Source of the DNA: an uncultured Gemmatimonadota bacterium
GTDB taxonomy: Bacteria; Gemmatimonadota; Gemmatimonadetes; Gemmatimonadales; Gemmatimonadaceae
DNA: 64,000 nucleotides
Reading direction: 5' to 3'
Assembly (NCBI GenBank): GCA_902825965.1
Contig: CADEDA010000003.1
Location: 221,149 to 285,148 of the forward strand
Shown: piece after piece, positions 8,829 through 51,984 of the stretch
Position numbering within the stretch: position 1 is the stretch's first letter
How the letters are laid out: each line of letters starts with the position of its first letter
Notes under the pieces: model-generated
What the model was told of the DNA's origin: nothing
Database searches by the model: none
What the model saw: the letters and a program-made list of their open reading frames with translations, nothing else
Translations under genes and position numbers: made by a program

Positions 8829-9626
8829 ATGCGCTGTCTCCCCGCGTTGCTCCTCGTCGCCGTCGCTGGCCCGCTCTCTGTCGCCGCGCAGTCCCACGCC
8901 CCTGCCGCCAAGCCCGACCACAAGCCCGTCGCCCACGCGCCGGCCTCGCACGCGCCGCACTGGACGTACGAAGGCAAGGGTGGCCCCAAGGACTGGGGAC
9001 GCCTCGACCCGGCCTGGGCGATCTGCAGCACCGGGCACGAGCAGTCGCCGATCGACCTCGGCGGTCCGGTCGCGTCGCACAAGGCGCGCATCGAGGAGCG
9101 CTTCACGTCGTCACCGTTCGTCCTCTTCCACAACGGGCACACAGTGCAGGCGGCGCTCGAGAAGCCGAGTGAGCTGCTGGCCGAGGGCGCGAAGTTCCAG
9201 GCCATCCAGTTCCACTTCCATCACCCGAGCGAGCACACCATCCGCGGCAAGGCCTACCCGGGCGAGTTGCACCTCGTGCACAAGAACGCGAAGGGCGAGC
9301 TGGCCGTGCTCGGCGTGTTCATCGCCATCGGTCCCAAGGACAACGCGCTGTTCGAAGGCATGCTCAGCCGGATCCCGCGGCATGAGGGCGACAGCGTGAA
9401 GTTCGCCGCACCGGTGGACATCGGCATGTTGCTCGACGACCATCACGACGAGCTCGAGGACGTGTACACCTACCACGGCTCGCTGACCACGCCGCCGTGC
9501 TCCGAGGGCGTGCGCTGGACCGTGCGGGCGCGCCCGCTGCAGGTCTCGCTGCGGCAGATGCAGCGGCTGGTGGAGGTGCTCGGCGAGAGCGCCCGGCCGG
9601 TGCAGCCGGTGTACGCCCGGCACTAG
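8829..9626 (+). CDS. alpha-type carbonic anhydrase, exported
   Basis: 265 residues; signal peptide 1-20 (ending SVAAQ), then a His-rich segment (about 23-44) and a complete alpha-CA domain. It interconverts CO2 and bicarbonate in the periplasm. Signature segments are EQSPIDL, FHFHHPSEH, ELHLVHKN and YHGSLTTPPCSEGVRW. The zinc ligands should be His129, His131 and His148 by comparison with human His94/96/119. It stands alone, closed by the strong hairpin at 9652. The His-rich linker might help bind zinc in the periplasm (inference). Confidence 0.93.
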   Translation: MRCLPALLLVAVAGPLSVAAQSHAPAAKPDHKPVAHAPASHAPHWTYEGKGGPKDWGRLDPAWAICSTGHEQSPIDLGGPVASHKARIEERFTSSPFVLFHNGHTVQAALEKPSELLAEGAKFQAIQFHFHHPSEHTIRGKAYPGELHLVHKNAKGELAVLGVFIAIGPKDNALFEGMLSRIPRHEGDSVKFAAPVDIGMLLDDHHDELEDVYTYHGSLTTPPCSEGVRWTVRARPLQVSLRQMQRLVEVLGESARPVQPVYARH

Positions 9627-9651
9627 GCCACCCGGCTCCGGCAGTCCCACG

Positions 9652-9685
9652 AGCGCGCCGCCCCCTTGACGGGGGGCGGCGCGCT
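9652..9685 (+). terminator. 14-bp hairpin after the carbonic anhydrase gene
   Basis: 9652-9665 pairs perfectly with 9672-9685 around the loop TTGACG; a short CCTTT follows. It ends only 25 bases before the start codon of the ArsR-methyltransferase gene, so it insulates that gene from read-through and leaves very little room for a conventional promoter and leader. Confidence 0.75.
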
Positions 9686-9691
9686 TGCAAC

Positions 9692-9717
9692 CTTTCATCC
9701 GGATATACGGATGAAAG
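9692..9717 (+). promoter_or_regulatory. palindromic operator over the regulator start codon
   Basis: CTTTCATCCG (9692-9701) and CGGATGAAAG (9708-9717) are a perfect 10-bp inverted repeat around GATATA. The ATG at 9711 of the ArsR-methyltransferase gene lies in the right arm. ArsR dimers bind such palindromes, so self-repression is likely. The central AT-rich part could also be part of the promoter. Confidence 0.65.
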
Positions 9718-10649
9718 CGACACCCCTCCACGACCGCCTGTCGGCCCTGGCCGATCCGATCCGCACCCGGCTCCTCCTGCTGCTCGAGCGCCACGAGCTG
9801 ACGGTGACCGAGTTGCGGGCGGTGCTGCAGTCCCCGCAGTCCACTGTGAGCCGGCACCTCAAGGTGCTCGCGGACAGTGACTGGGTGGACTCCCGCGAGG
9901 ACGGCACCTCCAACCGCTATCGCCTCGAAGTGCGCACGCTCGACGCGGGCGCGCGGAAGCTCTGGGCGGCCGTGCGCGACGAGGCCGCGTCGAGCGCCGC
10001 GGCGCGCCGCGACGCGGAGCGGGTGAAGGGGGTGCTGGCGGAACGGCACACGCGGTCGCAGGCGTTCTTCGCGAACGCGGCGGCCCAATGGGACCGGATG
10101 CGAGCCGAGCTGTTCGGACCGCGCACGGAACTGTTCACGCTGGCGGGCCTGCTGGACCCCGCGGCGGTCGTCGGGGATCTGGGCTGCGGCACGGGGCAGT
10201 TGACCGAGACCGTCGCCCCGTTCGTGCGGCAGGTCATCGCCGTCGATGAGTCGGCGCCGATGTTGAAGGCGGCACGCGCGCGTCTCGCCTCGCAGGCGAA
10301 CGTCGAGTTGCGCGAGGGGTCCCTGGAGGCGCTGCCGATCGCCGATGCTGCACTCGATCTCGCGGTGCTCTCGCTGGTGTTGCACTTCGTGGCCGAGCCC
10401 GTGGAGGCGTTGACGGAGATCCGTCGCGTGCTGCGCCCCGGCGCCGGCCGCCTGTTGTTGCTCGACATGCTCCCGCACGACCACGACGAGTACCAGCAGA
10501 CGATGGGCCATGTCTGGCTGGGCATCTCGTCGGACCAACTCCAGCAGTGGAGCGACGCGGCCGGTTTCCGTGCCCTGCGCTACCACGCCCTGCCTGCGGC
10601 GACGCAGGTGAAGGGGCCGATGTTGTTCACGGCCGTACTGCAGGTGTGA
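9711..10649 (+). CDS. ArsR-family regulator fused to a methyltransferase domain (SahR-like)
   Basis: 312 residues from ATG 9711. An upstream in-frame ATG (9666) lies in the terminator loop and gives a poor N-terminus. Residues 1-75 are a winged helix-turn-helix of the ArsR type (LADPIRTRLLLLLERHELTV, PQSTVSRHLKVLADSDWV). Residues 115-310 are a class I methyltransferase domain with GDLGCGTGQL (155-164), VIAVDESAPML and VLSLVLHFVAEP. SahR regulators of this architecture repress methionine-cycle genes and respond to S-adenosylhomocysteine; here the next gene is ahcY, which breaks that compound down. The domain may act as a ligand sensor rather than an enzyme (inference). Its stop codon lies inside a GGTGTGAGG repeat. 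Confidence 0.85.
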   Translation: MKATPLHDRLSALADPIRTRLLLLLERHELTVTELRAVLQSPQSTVSRHLKVLADSDWVDSREDGTSNRYRLEVRTLDAGARKLWAAVRDEAASSAAARRDAERVKGVLAERHTRSQAFFANAAAQWDRMRAELFGPRTELFTLAGLLDPAAVVGDLGCGTGQLTETVAPFVRQVIAVDESAPMLKAARARLASQANVELREGSLEALPIADAALDLAVLSLVLHFVAEPVEALTEIRRVLRPGAGRLLLLDMLPHDHDEYQQTMGHVWLGISSDQLQQWSDAAGFRALRYHALPAATQVKGPMLFTAVLQV

Positions 10650-47739: not shown

Positions 47740-47794
47740 GCGAGATTCACGCGAGACTCACGCGAGACTCACGCGAGACTCATGCGAGACTCAT
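47740..47794. repeat. 11-nt tandem repeat reaching into the mnmA stop codon
   Basis: Five units of GCGAGACTCAC/T (47740-47750, 47751-47761, 47762-47772, 47773-47783, 47784-47794), the first with one change. The last unit contains the mnmA stop (TCA at 47791-47793). The unit length is not a multiple of three, unlike the other arrays here. Confidence 0.85.
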
Positions 47795-48888
47795 GCGGCG
47801 CGCACGGGCAGCGCGCGCTTGCCGCGCTCGATCACACCGCCGCCAAGCACGACGTCGCCGTCGTAGAAGACCACGGACTGCCCTGGGGTGATGGCCTGCA
47901 CGGGGGTGTCGAGGGCCACCTCGACCTCGTCGCCCTCGACGCGCAGCAGCGTGCCGGGCACGAGCGCGGCGCGATGCCGGATGCGCACCCGGAGCGGGGT
48001 GCCGACGCCGGGGACCTCGCCGACCAGCCAGTTCACGCCGCGGGCCACCAGCCCGCGACCGAGCAGCGCGTCCCGCGGTCCCACCACCACGGCCCGATCC
48101 TCGGGCCGCAGTGCGACGACGAACAGCGGCTCGTTGTGCCCACCCGGCAGGCCGCGCCGCTGCCCCACGGTGTAGCGCGCGAACCCGTCGTGCGTGCCGA
48201 CCACCGTGCCATCGAGCGTGACGATGGGCCCCGGGACGAGTGCCGGGGCGTCGGCCGGCAGCTCGCGTTCCAGGACCTTCACGTAGTCCCCGTCCGGCAC
48301 GAAGCAGATCTCCTGGCTCTCGGCCTTCTCGGCCGTGAGCAGGCCGAGTTCCCGCGCCATCTCCCGCGTCTCGGCCTTGGTCATCGCGCCCACGGGGAGC
48401 AGCATGCGGTCGAGCACCGCGCGCTCGATGCCCCACAGGAAGTAGGTCTGGTCCTTCTGGTCGTCCACGCCGCGCAGCAGTCGGCCATCGGCGACACGCG
48501 CGTAGTGCCCCGTCGCGATGAACGGCGCCTCGATCCGGTCGGCGGTGTGCAGCAGGTCGCGGAACTTGGTGAACGTGTTGCAGCGCACGCAGGGGATCGG
48601 CGTGCGGCCCGCCGCGTACTCGGCGACGAACTCCTGCAGCACGTCGCGACCGAAGGCGTCCTGCAGGTTGAGCACGTAGTGCGGGATGCCGAGCGACTCG
48701 GCGACCCGCCGCGCGTCGTTGACGCTGTCGAGCGAGCAGCAGGGCCGGTCGGGGGTCTCGCCGCCGTCGTGGAAGAGCTTCATGGTCACGCCCACGACGT
48801 CATGGCCCGCGCGCACCAGCAGCGCCGCGGCGACGCTCGAGTCGACGCCGCCGGACATGGCGACCAGCACGCGGGACCTGTTCACCAC
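47791..48888 (-). CDS. mnmA: tRNA-specific 2-thiouridylase MnmA
   Basis: 365 residues from GTG 48888. PP-loop ATP-binding motif VAMSGGVDSSVAAALL, then CVRCNTFTKFRDLL (first catalytic Cys), KDQTYFLWGI, and AESQEICFVPDGDY (second Cys). It inserts sulfur at U34 of tRNAs for Lys, Glu and Gln. The cysteine desulfurase that could supply the sulfur ends 7 bases upstream, so the two are an operon. The C-terminus ends in the 11-nt repeat. Confidence 0.95.
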   Translation of the reverse strand: MVNRSRVLVAMSGGVDSSVAAALLVRAGHDVVGVTMKLFHDGGETPDRPCCSLDSVNDARRVAESLGIPHYVLNLQDAFGRDVLQEFVAEYAAGRTPIPCVRCNTFTKFRDLLHTADRIEAPFIATGHYARVADGRLLRGVDDQKDQTYFLWGIERAVLDRMLLPVGAMTKAETREMARELGLLTAEKAESQEICFVPDGDYVKVLERELPADAPALVPGPIVTLDGTVVGTHDGFARYTVGQRRGLPGGHNEPLFVVALRPEDRAVVVGPRDALLGRGLVARGVNWLVGEVPGVGTPLRVRIRHRAALVPGTLLRVEGDEVEVALDTPVQAITPGQSVVFYDGDVVLGGGVIERGKRALPVRAA

Positions 48889-48895
48889 GACGGAC

Positions 48896-50062
48896 TCAGC
48901 CGACGCTGGCCAGACCCCGCGCCTTCGCGACGAGGGAGGGGAAGACCTCGGCGACCCGCGCGACGTCGGCGGGCGTGCTCAGGGAGCCAAGGCTCATGCG
49001 GATGGCGGCGTTGGCGAGTTCGGCGCGCACCCCCATCGCCGAGAGCACGTGCGAGGGGGTCACGCTCCCGCTCTGGCAGGCCGAGCCGCTCGACGCCGCG
49101 ATGCCCTGCAGGTCGAGCGCCATCAGCAGCGACTCGGAGTCGGTGCCGGGCACGGAGACATTGAGGATGTGCGGGGCGCGCTTGGCGTCGCGGCCGTGGA
49201 TCGTCGCGTCGGGGATCTTGGCCACGATCGCCGCCTGCAGCTCGTTGCGCAGCGCCTCGAGCTCACGCCAGTGCGCCTCGCGCTCGGCGATCGCCAGTTC
49301 CATCGCGCGGGCGAGCCCCACGGCGGAGGCGACGTTCTCCGTACCCGGACGACGGCCGCGGTCCTGCGACCCACCGAAGAACAGCGGCTCCAACGCCGTG
49401 CCGCGCCGGATGAAGAAGGCGCCGATGCCCTTGGGGGCGCCGATCTTGTGACCACTCACGGCGACGAAGTCGAACGGGATCTTCCGCGCGTCCACCTCGA
49501 CCTTGCCGAACGCCTGGACCGCGTCGGTGTGGAAGACGGCGCCGGCGGCCTTCGTGAGCTCGGCGAGCTCCGCGATCGGCTGGATGACACCGGTCTCGTT
49601 GTTGATCCACATCACGCTACACAACGCGAGGTCGCCCGGTGTCAGCTTGGCGCGCGCATCGTCGAGTGCGACCGTGCCGGTGGCGTCGACCCGGAGCAGG
49701 CGTTCCTCGGCCCCTTCCTTGGCGGCCTGGTGGACGGCCTGCAGCACGGCCTTGTGTTCGATGGGCGACGTCACGACCGCCTTCTTGCCCTGCGCCTTCA
49801 GGATGCGCCAGCCCCCCAACACGGCGAGGTTGTCGCCTTCGGTGCCTCCGCTGGTGAAGCAGACTTCGTCCGGTGCCGCGCCGAGGCACTGGGCCACGCG
49901 CTCGCGGGCCTCATCGAGTGCGGCACGTGCCTCGCGTCCCCAGCGGTGCGTGGACGAGGGGTTGCCGAAGCGCGGGCCGAAGAACGGCGCCATCGCCTCG
50001 AAGACCTCGGAACGGACCGGGGTCGTGGCGGCGTGATCGAGGTAGATCGGGTCGCGGGACAT
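48896..50062 (-). CDS. iscS: cysteine desulfurase (IscS/NifS type)
   Basis: 388 residues. PLP enzyme taking sulfur from cysteine as a persulfide. Motifs: IYLDHAATTPVRSEV, FTSGGTEGDNLAVL, the PLP lysine in AVSGHKIGAPKGIGA, and the active-site Cys loop SSGSACQSGSVTPSHVLSAMG. Directly upstream of mnmA, suggesting it mainly feeds tRNA thiolation; no iscU-like scaffold is next to it. Confidence 0.95.
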   Translation of the reverse strand: MSRDPIYLDHAATTPVRSEVFEAMAPFFGPRFGNPSSTHRWGREARAALDEARERVAQCLGAAPDEVCFTSGGTEGDNLAVLGGWRILKAQGKKAVVTSPIEHKAVLQAVHQAAKEGAEERLLRVDATGTVALDDARAKLTPGDLALCSVMWINNETGVIQPIAELAELTKAAGAVFHTDAVQAFGKVEVDARKIPFDFVAVSGHKIGAPKGIGAFFIRRGTALEPLFFGGSQDRGRRPGTENVASAVGLARAMELAIAEREAHWRELEALRNELQAAIVAKIPDATIHGRDAKRAPHILNVSVPGTDSESLLMALDLQGIAASSGSACQSGSVTPSHVLSAMGVRAELANAAIRMSLGSLSTPADVARVAEVFPSLVAKARGLASVG

Positions 50063-50098: not shown

Positions 50099-50737
50099 TC
50101 ACTCCCCAGGATGCGTCAACTTGAAGACCGAGGCGGCAGCCACCCCCCCGGCGAGCGGGCCCGCAAGGTAGATCCACGCTTCACCGGTGACGGGATTCCC
50201 GACCACGATCTCGACCAGCGCACTCGCGAGCCCGACCGCCGGATTGAAGGCGCCGCCGGAGATCGTGGCCATGGCATAGATGCACGCCGTCACGGCGCCG
50301 CCGATCGCCAGCCCCGCGTAGTGGTTGTCCTGCGTCGCGCGGGCGGTGGCGACGTTGAGGATGACGGCGATGAGGAAGAAGCTCATCACCGCTTCCCCGG
50401 CGATGGCCTTGGCGATGCTCACCCCTTCGTCGGGTGCGATGTGCAGCGGCACGCCGAGGAACTTGTACGTGAGCATCGCCGCGGCCACGGCGCCGAGGAA
50501 CTGCGCGGCGACGTACGGCAGCACCTCGCGCGCGGGGAACCCGCCGCGGATCCAGAACGCGATGGAGGTGGCCGGGTTGTAGTGCGCCCCGGAGACGTGC
50601 CCGCCGAAGTGCACGAGCGCCATGAGCGCGAAGCCGATGGCGAGTGGGGCGGTCTCGTCGAACTGCAGCGACGAGAGGCCGATGACGAGCATCAGCAGGA
50701 AGGTGCCGACGGCTTCCGTGAGGAGTTTGGGGAGCAT
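50099..50737 (-). CDS. MIP-family channel with atypical selectivity filter
   Basis: 212 residues from ATG 50737, six helices. The two half-helix motifs are HYNPATS (NPA 54-56) and FNPAVGL (NPA 165-167). Water and glycerol channels normally have Arg right after the second NPA; here it is Val168, which should widen the pore and remove a positive charge. It diverges from an arsR gene with a cysteine pair in the metalloid-site position, so metalloid passage, as for the rhizobial channel AqpS, is a reasonable inference. Plain water or small-solute transport remains possible. Confidence 0.85.
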   Translation of the reverse strand: MLPKLLTEAVGTFLLMLVIGLSSLQFDETAPLAIGFALMALVHFGGHVSGAHYNPATSIAFWIRGGFPAREVLPYVAAQFLGAVAAAMLTYKFLGVPLHIAPDEGVSIAKAIAGEAVMSFFLIAVILNVATARATQDNHYAGLAIGGAVTACIYAMATISGGAFNPAVGLASALVEIVVGNPVTGEAWIYLAGPLAGGVAAASVFKLTHPGE

Positions 50738-50816
50738 GGCAGCCCATAGGTTGCGGTGCGGTGGCGCGGTCCACAAGGCGTCTGGCCTTGTCGCGCCGTG
50801 TGCCGACGGATATCGT

Positions 50817-50834
50817 ATATGCGATGCCGCATAT
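50817..50834. promoter_or_regulatory. palindromic operator upstream of the arsR start
   Basis: ATATGCG (50817-50823) and CGCATAT (50828-50834) form a perfect inverted repeat with a 4-base spacer, flanked by further GATAT/ATATC-like sequence. It ends 3 bases before the ATG at 50838 and lies between arsR and the divergent channel gene, so one ArsR dimer could control both. Confidence 0.65.
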
Positions 50835-50837
50835 GAT

Positions 50838-51224
50838 ATGACCCCGCTCGCCCTGCTGCCAGCGACCCGCACGGCGCTCCGCCGCATCGCCACCCTGCAT
50901 GAGGCCTGCGGCGACCCGGCCCGCCTGCGCCTGCTCAACCTCCTCGCCGCCGGGGAGCTCTGCGTCTGCGACCTCGTGGCGCTCACGGGCGCATCCCAGC
51001 CCTTCGTCTCGCGGCACCTGGCGCGGCTGCGCGCGGCGCAACTGGTGGAGGTGGAGCGCCGAGGCAAGTTCGCCTACTACCGCCTGCGCCCGCTCGCCGC
51101 GGCCGCGCAGCGCCAGCTCGATGCCGTGCTCGACGGTGTGCACACCGCCGACGCCCACCTGCGACGCGAACGTGATCGCGCGACGACGCTCGCCGCACGA
51201 CGCGGCGCCCAGCCCTGCGACTGA
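50838..51224 (+). CDS. ArsR-family metalloregulator
   Basis: 128 residues from ATG 50838. Winged helix-turn-helix with LHEACGDPARLRLLNLLAAG and GASQPFVSRHLARLRAAQLV. Helix 3 carries ELCVCDL with Cys42 and Cys44 as in arsenite-binding ArsR (CVCDLC), but the third Cys position is Val47. It should repress itself and possibly the divergent MIP channel until a thiophilic metalloid binds. Two-cysteine variants can still respond. The metallophosphoesterase gene begins 7 bases after its stop. Confidence 0.85.
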   Translation: MTPLALLPATRTALRRIATLHEACGDPARLRLLNLLAAGELCVCDLVALTGASQPFVSRHLARLRAAQLVEVERRGKFAYYRLRPLAAAAQRQLDAVLDGVHTADAHLRRERDRATTLAARRGAQPCD

Positions 51225-51231
51225 CCACCCC

Positions 51232-51984
51232 ATGACCGTCCAGATCGCCCTGCTCTCGGACATCCACGCGAATCTCCACGCGCTCGACGCCGTGCTGGCG
51301 GACATCGCCGCGCAGTCCGGGATCGCGGGCCGCTATCACCTCGGCGACCTGGTGGGCTACCACGCCTACCCGAACGAGGTGACCGCCCGGCTCGGGGAGG
51401 CCGGCGTCCCCGGCGTGGCGGGCAACTACGACTCGACCGTCGCGATGCACTACAAGCATTGCGGGTGCCGCTCGGAGAACCCGCGCCAGGAGGAGTTGGC
51501 GCACCAGAGTTTCGCGTGGACGCTCGCCACCGTCACCGAGCGCACGCGCGCGGCGCTCGCCGCGCTGCCGTTCCGGCTCGACGTGCGACCGCTGGGTGGT
51601 CACGTCGCGGGCCCGACGCTGATCCTGCTGCATGCGACGCCGACGAGCAACCTCGTGTACGTGACGGAGGATCGCAGCGACGACTTCCTGCGGAAGATGG
51701 CCGAGCAGGCCGGGGCGAAGGCCGGCGATGTGATCGCCTTCGGACACACCCACAAGCCGTGGCATCGCGTGGTGGACGAGGTGCTGTTCGTCAACACGGG
51801 ATCCGTGGGCCGCCCCAAGGACGGGGACCCGCGTGCGGGCTGGACGCTGATCACGCTGGGAGGCGCAGCGCCACGCGCCGAATCGCGCCGCGTCCCCTAC
51901 GACGTCGCTGCGGCCTGTGCCGCGATCGGCGCGGCGGGGCTGCCGGAGGAGTTCGCCGAGACGCTGCGGACGGGACGCGCCTGA
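51232..51984 (+). CDS. metallophosphoesterase
   Basis: 250 residues from ATG 51232. Calcineurin-like motifs in order: LLSDIHANLHAL, YHLGDLVGYHAYPNE, GVAGNYDSTV (Asn-Tyr-Asp in place of the usual GNHD), LLHATP, and FGHTHKPW. A Cys-rich loop KHCGCRSENPRQEEL is specific to this subgroup. Substrate unknown. Placement directly after arsR in a divergent unit with a MIP channel suggests a role in the same response (inference only). Confidence 0.85.
   Translation: MTVQIALLSDIHANLHALDAVLADIAAQSGIAGRYHLGDLVGYHAYPNEVTARLGEAGVPGVAGNYDSTVAMHYKHCGCRSENPRQEELAHQSFAWTLATVTERTRAALAALPFRLDVRPLGGHVAGPTLILLHATPTSNLVYVTEDRSDDFLRKMAEQAGAKAGDVIAFGHTHKPWHRVVDEVLFVNTGSVGRPKDGDPRAGWTLITLGGAAPRAESRRVPYDVAAACAAIGAAGLPEEFAETLRTGRA

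Follow-up and report, generated by a model that had tools for sequence, protein, structure and literature searches.

Arsenate reductases of the metallophosphoesterase (MPE) type were recognised only in 2024, with Car1 of Rufibacter tibetensis, according to the account given in PMC12124457 an As(V) reductase that evolved from an MPE and in which both Cys74 and Cys76 are essential (Shen et al. 2024, 10.1111/mmi.15289, cited in PMC12124457). The same account describes an MPE of Paraclostridium dentum, Orf1, which is encoded in an ars operon, shares about 40% identity with Car1 and carries its Cys74 and Cys76. Other metallophosphoesterases, mrme1 and mrme2, occur together with acr3 in the ars operons of Mucilaginibacter gossypii (PMC10652896). 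As for the exit of arsenite, in Sinorhizobium meliloti it leaves by diffusion through the MIP channel AqpS (PMC6205960), and in an earlier survey all 18 of the 18 ars-operon MIPs were found without ArsB or ACR3 (PMC4435449).

The locus analysed here lies within a stretch of 64,000 nucleotides (the window) on contig C3 of a Gemmatimonadaceae genome. Gemmatimonadota are common soil bacteria, and the related MPE loci belong to the same group. A first-pass annotation had recognised three genes at this site, together with a CxC motif in ArsR, a Val168 in the channel, an HCGC motif in the MPE and a palindrome between the channel and arsR, all of which are indeed present in the sequence. The genes and their flanks are as follows:

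47791..48888, minus strand: mnmA-like tRNA thiouridylase, a flanking housekeeping gene
48896..50062, minus strand: iscS-like cysteine desulfurase, flanking, adjoining the MIP gene
50099..50737, minus strand: MIP channel (P0002), 212 aa, Pfam MIP 112.8 bits
50838..51224, plus strand: arsR, repressor of the ArsR/SmtB type (P0001), 128 aa, NF033788 83.5 bits
51232..51984, plus strand: metallophosphoesterase (P0003), proposed Car1-type arsenate reductase, 250 aa, Metallophos_2 67 bits

The divergent MIP and arsR genes are separated by a gap of 100 bp, and the MPE gene starts 7 nt past arsR, which places it in the position of an ars-operon gene. The sequence elements of the arsR gene and its upstream region are these:

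50773..50791, unstranded: perfect inverted repeat ACAAGGC-gtctg-GCCTTGT with 7-bp arms, between MIP and the operator
50810..50839, unstranded: predicted ArsR operator ATATCGTATATGCGATGCCGCATATGATAT, which includes the palindrome and reaches into the arsR start codon
50833..50862, minus strand: weak sigma-70-like promoter CTGGCA-18-TATCAT directed toward MIP, a consensus match only, its -10 within the operator block
50961..50969, plus strand: codons of the arsenite-type CxC of ArsR (Cys42-Val43-Cys44), read from the sequence

Profile searches place the repressor in the ArsR/SmtB winged-helix family, with its NF033788 score well over the curated cut-off of 55 and a further match to HTH_5 (59.8 bits). 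Its CxC is located within the DNA-binding domain in an ELCVCDL context, and the four cysteines Cys24, Cys42, Cys44 and Cys127 are all retained in two relatives, L040 and L158. The palindrome ATATGCG-N4-CGCATAT at 50817-50834 is perfect, in comparison with 0.03 occurrences expected in shuffled sequences at two or fewer mismatches; the element reported in the first-pass annotation is thus real and above chance, and it forms part of a longer block, ATATCGTATATGNNATRCC, with a single copy in the window (0 expected). This block is kept ahead of arsR, at the same place, in L040 and L158, where the gene that diverges from arsR across it encodes ACR3. Such a palindromic block, conserved at the arsR promoter of three species, is a putative operator as judged from sequence conservation. 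The inverted repeat at 50773-50791 (0.18 expected at two or fewer mismatches) is absent from the intergenic sequences of L040 and L158, and for the sigma-70-like element toward MIP one copy was found versus 0.1 expected in shuffles. There is little doubt, in our opinion, that the ArsR of the window is an arsenic repressor.

The MPE is predicted to adopt a calcineurin-like fold with a complete set of metal ligands, and D10, H12, D39, N65, H134, H172 and H174 are invariant in the alignment. Soon after the active-site GNYD motif, a loop carries two closely spaced cysteines:

51457..51468, plus strand: codons of His76-Cys77-Gly78-Cys79 of the MPE

The HCGC motif is invariant in 52 of 52 aligned MPE proteins, and CGC is found in 81 of 81 loci. 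In the predicted structure (pLDDT 92.9 overall) the loop comes after the helix that begins at the active-site Asn65, and the block containing CGC is the lowest of the model, with a pLDDT of 74. Cys77 and Cys79 align with C74 and C76 of the MPEs of Adhaeribacter, Hymenobacter, Pedobacter and Paraclostridium, the window protein being 44% identical to the Adhaeribacter homologue and 32% to the one encoded on the Paraclostridium plasmid. The comparison with Car1 was made through these Paraclostridium and Bacteroidota intermediates, with the Car1 numbering taken from what PMC12124457 reports; a search of plasmid 1 of R. tibetensis gave no match. A sister family of MPEs (about 30% identical; L178, L179, L180, L182, L183, L184, L186 and L187) has a C(Q/R)C in the corresponding position with no clear ars genes nearby, and consequently the CxC alone is insufficient as evidence of arsenate reduction and was rejected as a proof of it. 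These sister proteins may reduce arsenate as stand-alone enzymes, or the CxC may have come from them. In the ars operon of Pedobacter, the second of two tandem MPEs (L123:6775-7509) lacks the CGC and therefore cannot act by the same cysteines.

How far MPEs of this kind are tied to arsenic was examined by scanning 84,980 species genomes, which yielded 214 MPE relatives, the best 80 of them being examined with their flanks by means of a simple home-made gene caller and tblastn within a distance limit of 3.5 kb. Within this limit, and among the best matches of the 214 relatives, an ars gene (arsR, ACR3, ArsM, ArsN or ArsA) was found in 70 of 81 MPE loci, mostly from Gemmatimonadota; many of the loci are short contigs, where the absence of a neighbour is soft, and among those with full flanks the linkage holds for 27 of 32. 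The most frequent neighbour in these 81 loci was arsR (57), followed by ArsM (35), ACR3 (31), ArsN (25), ArsA (9) and MIP (9), with arsR on the same strand as the MPE in 57 of 57 cases and with arsR-arsM-arsN2-MPE, arsR-acr3-MPE and arsR-arsM-MPE-MIP as typical orders. Moreover, MPEs occur within annotated ars operons on plasmids of Rubrobacter, Adhaeribacter, Hymenobacter, Pedobacter and Paraclostridium, and a close relative of the window protein is encoded in 71 of 200 sampled Gemmatimonadota genomes. The neighbourhood survey that had been suggested with the first-pass annotation thus revealed an ars context conserved in other genomes, and arsR-MPE is well supported as a metalloid-response locus. 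The idea of the MPE as a strict replacement for ArsC is weakened, since ArsC adjoins the MPE on the Rubrobacter and Hymenobacter plasmids and an LMW-type ArsC-like gene lies nearby in 4 of the 81 loci (best matches of 214 relatives). Some MPE cassettes (L158, L041, L043, L047 and L051) are found beside ppk, ppx, pitA, pst or phoU, and so adjoin genes for the uptake of phosphate, by which arsenate enters the cell.

Due to this linkage with ars operons and to a CGC at the place of Cys74 and Cys76 of Car1, the window MPE is most likely a Car1-type arsenate reductase, an assignment by alignment that we hold with good confidence. What had been described as a Cys-rich loop in a metallophosphoesterase following arsR is correct as a motif, and is better read as the mark of such a reductase. 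In functional terms, then, the earlier statement that the locus has no arsC is probably wrong, and the minimal set of three genes is better taken for an arsenate system that is probably complete, its reductase being of the MPE type.

The rest of the genome was checked family by family. Neither of the two candidates for a canonical ArsC among its PF01451 and PF03960 proteins exceeded the NCBIfam cut-offs (43.8 bits versus 174.3 for the LMW-PTP candidate; 36.2 versus 106.05 for the Spx-like one); PF01451 itself matches every genome and is therefore unusable as an ArsC marker. No match to ACR3 was found in this genome by a search that was positive in 5 congeners, nor was there any match to ArsP, and an ArsB/NhaD/MamN-like transporter encoded elsewhere stays below all NCBIfam cut-offs. 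A second ars locus with the order arsR-arsM-arsN2-arsO is present on another contig (G000:C6, L161:4343-7166, plus strand), where arsM, arsN2 and arsO each score over their specific NCBIfam cut-offs, so that the reported absence of arsB, arsC and arsM holds at the locus and fails, for arsM, in the genome as a whole. Another frame of the window (~9623-10645, plus strand; 340 aa), which combines an ArsR-type HTH with a SAM-dependent methyltransferase domain and immediately precedes ahcY, looks like a regulator of the SAM cycle and not an arsenic gene.

As for the MIP channel, in L040 ACR3 holds its place beside the same mnmA-iscS flank, and the MPE is 86% identical to that of the window; the MPE of L158 is 78% identical, and the ArsR of these relatives 77%. 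In genome G073, which carries L158, the ACR3/arsR-MPE cassette with the same operator lies at another site, between ppk and ppx. A genome of the same genus, G125, has mnmA-iscS-MIP without arsR and an MPE elsewhere, also without arsR, which indicates that the MIP lay next to iscS whether or not the cassette was there. ACR3 and a MIP were never found together in one MPE locus (81 loci, best matches of 214 relatives). Across the 71 genomes with an MPE, ACR3 and MIPs (of the window subfamily or adjacent to an MPE) tend toward exclusion, with p=1e-4 in a tally by genome that ignores phylogeny and p=0.009 when counted by genus for either kind of MIP. The genus-level exclusion is clear for the MPE-adjacent, Arg-type MIPs (0/25 vs 6/16, p=0.002) and not significant for the window subfamily alone (p=0.15). 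Replacement of ACR3 by the MIP in its functional place is plausible from these comparisons, because the channel has the operator and the divergent position of ACR3 in L040 and L158, the genome has no ACR3, and the two were never found in a single MPE locus.

The channel itself has NPA motifs at 54-56 and 165-167, and a subfamily filter made of Ile34, Ile or Ala at 153, Gly162 and Val168, with Val168 in place of the usual Arg. This valine had been taken as a hint of a metalloid channel, a weak argument given that it is the norm of the subfamily (30 of 30 members), most of whose members lack ars neighbours; as a mark of an arsenic channel it was rejected. Among 29 relatives, 28 have neither the ars genes tested for nor mnmA-iscS within 1.5 kb, and the remaining one, that of G125, has iscS and no ars gene. 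Where a MIP is found downstream of an MPE within an ars operon, it belongs to a different type that has Arg at the filter position. AqpS-type relatives were located through a short motif, and the arsR and arsC genes annotated next to them bore out the assignment; four such plasmid proteins from arsR-arsC operons are also NPAV. In the tree, nevertheless, the window MIP falls outside the AqpS clade (separating branch 2.31, support 100/100), by which orthology with AqpS is rejected. A cluster on a Priestia plasmid (L176:632-4636) unites an aquaporin with a radical SAM protein with an RCCLKC tail, a GTP-binding protein and a phosphate transporter, for which a link to organoarsenicals is possible.

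On the whole we lean towards an arsenic-inducible cassette for arsenate detoxification, formed by an ArsR sensor, a Car1-type reductase and a recruited exit channel. ArsR bound at 50810-50839 would repress both divergent promoters, and As(III) on its CxC would release it, as family knowledge and the conservation of the site suggest. By homology with Car1, the MPE would then reduce arsenate to arsenite via its active-site CxC, and the arsenite may leave down its gradient through the MIP, in the place that ACR3 has in the sister species; this last is the least secure part. In all probability the cassette did not bring the channel with it: already beside iscS, it would have come under the ArsR operator by the position that the cassette took, and we infer the recruitment of a pre-existing neighbour as exit channel.

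For the channel, the evidence is evenly balanced as to whether it is an ArsR-controlled exit for arsenite. Possible as well, if on balance doubtful, is a reading in which arsR-MPE is the arsenic cassette and the MIP a bystander, an ordinary channel for water or small solutes that has long been beside iscS and faces arsR by chance. The conserved mnmA-iscS-MIP order of G125 without arsR, the lack of ars neighbours in 28 of 29 relatives, the valine common to the whole subfamily, the position outside the AqpS clade and the lack of a significant genus-level exclusion for this subfamily would all fit an indifferent neighbour. It is harder to explain in this way why ACR3 sits at the same iscS-side place under the same operator in L040, how arsenite from the reductase, which needs an exit, would leave a genome without ACR3 and ArsP, or why the weak promoter-like element toward MIP overlaps the operator.

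The enzyme allows for another interpretation too, in which the MPE hydrolyses phosphodiesters or dinucleotides, like SapH and YfcE, as part of the arsenic stress response, and its CxC senses As(III) or binds metal instead of reducing arsenate. All metal ligands are retained, and among solved folds the nearest to the predicted model is the Ap4A hydrolase/phosphodiesterase SapH, followed by other MPEs; in Rubrobacter and Hymenobacter an ArsC is present alongside the MPE, and the sister family without ars neighbours has its own CxC. However, Car1 has these two cysteines as well and is reported in the account of PMC12124457 as an arsenate reductase derived from an MPE. An ArsC-like gene of the LMW type, moreover, accompanies only the 4 loci mentioned among those 81 best matches, and we consider a hydrolase unlikely. 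The CxC of ArsR repressors also binds Sb(III), Cys24 and Cys127 could supply a third ligand, and the genome has a separate arsR-arsM-arsN2-arsO locus, all of which could speak for another thiophile (antimonite, methylarsenite or cadmium) as the ligand rather than inorganic arsenic; yet the Car1-type MPE, and the ACR3 of the relatives' cassettes, point to inorganic arsenate and arsenite, making such a ligand very improbable.

Returning to the exit-channel reading in its full extent, we propose tentatively a three-gene arsenate resistance that combines an MPE-type reductase with an aquaporin whose subfamily is not known to have a role in arsenic. The aquaporin would have been taken over from its housekeeping site at iscS once ACR3 had been lost from its place at a conserved ArsR operator, in what could be an exporter-to-channel swap within one genus. 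Such a swap is testable, and the locus offers a natural comparison of sister species that have ACR3 or a MIP under one and the same operator. Concerning the enzyme, a probable arsenate reductase of Gemmatimonadota is annotated only as 'metallophosphoesterase', and surveys that count arsC could therefore miss arsenate reduction in those 71 of 200 sampled genomes.

In comparison with the described systems, the locus shares with Car1 and with Orf1 of P. dentum, as far as these are reported, the MPE fold, a CGC past GNYD at the place of Cys74 and Cys76, and an adjacent arsR in an ars operon, whereas it faces a MIP rather than an ACR3 gene. With mrme1 and mrme2, and with the Pedobacter pair seen in this analysis, it has in common an MPE within an ars operon, which in those cases contains acr3; they differ in having two tandem MPE copies, of which the second one of Pedobacter is without CGC. 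AqpS of S. meliloti and AqpS-type channels resemble the window MIP in lying beside arsR with no other arsenite pump adjoining, and in having two NPA motifs, with Val after the second in the four plasmid relatives, but the window MIP belongs to a distant clade, reads SGGAFNPAVG instead of FANPAVTI, and has most of its relatives outside ars operons. The nearest counterparts are the arsR/acr3/MPE cassettes of L040 and L158, with the same arsR, MPE and operator and, for L040, the same mnmA-iscS flank, in which ACR3 occupies the divergent place that in the window belongs to the MIP channel.
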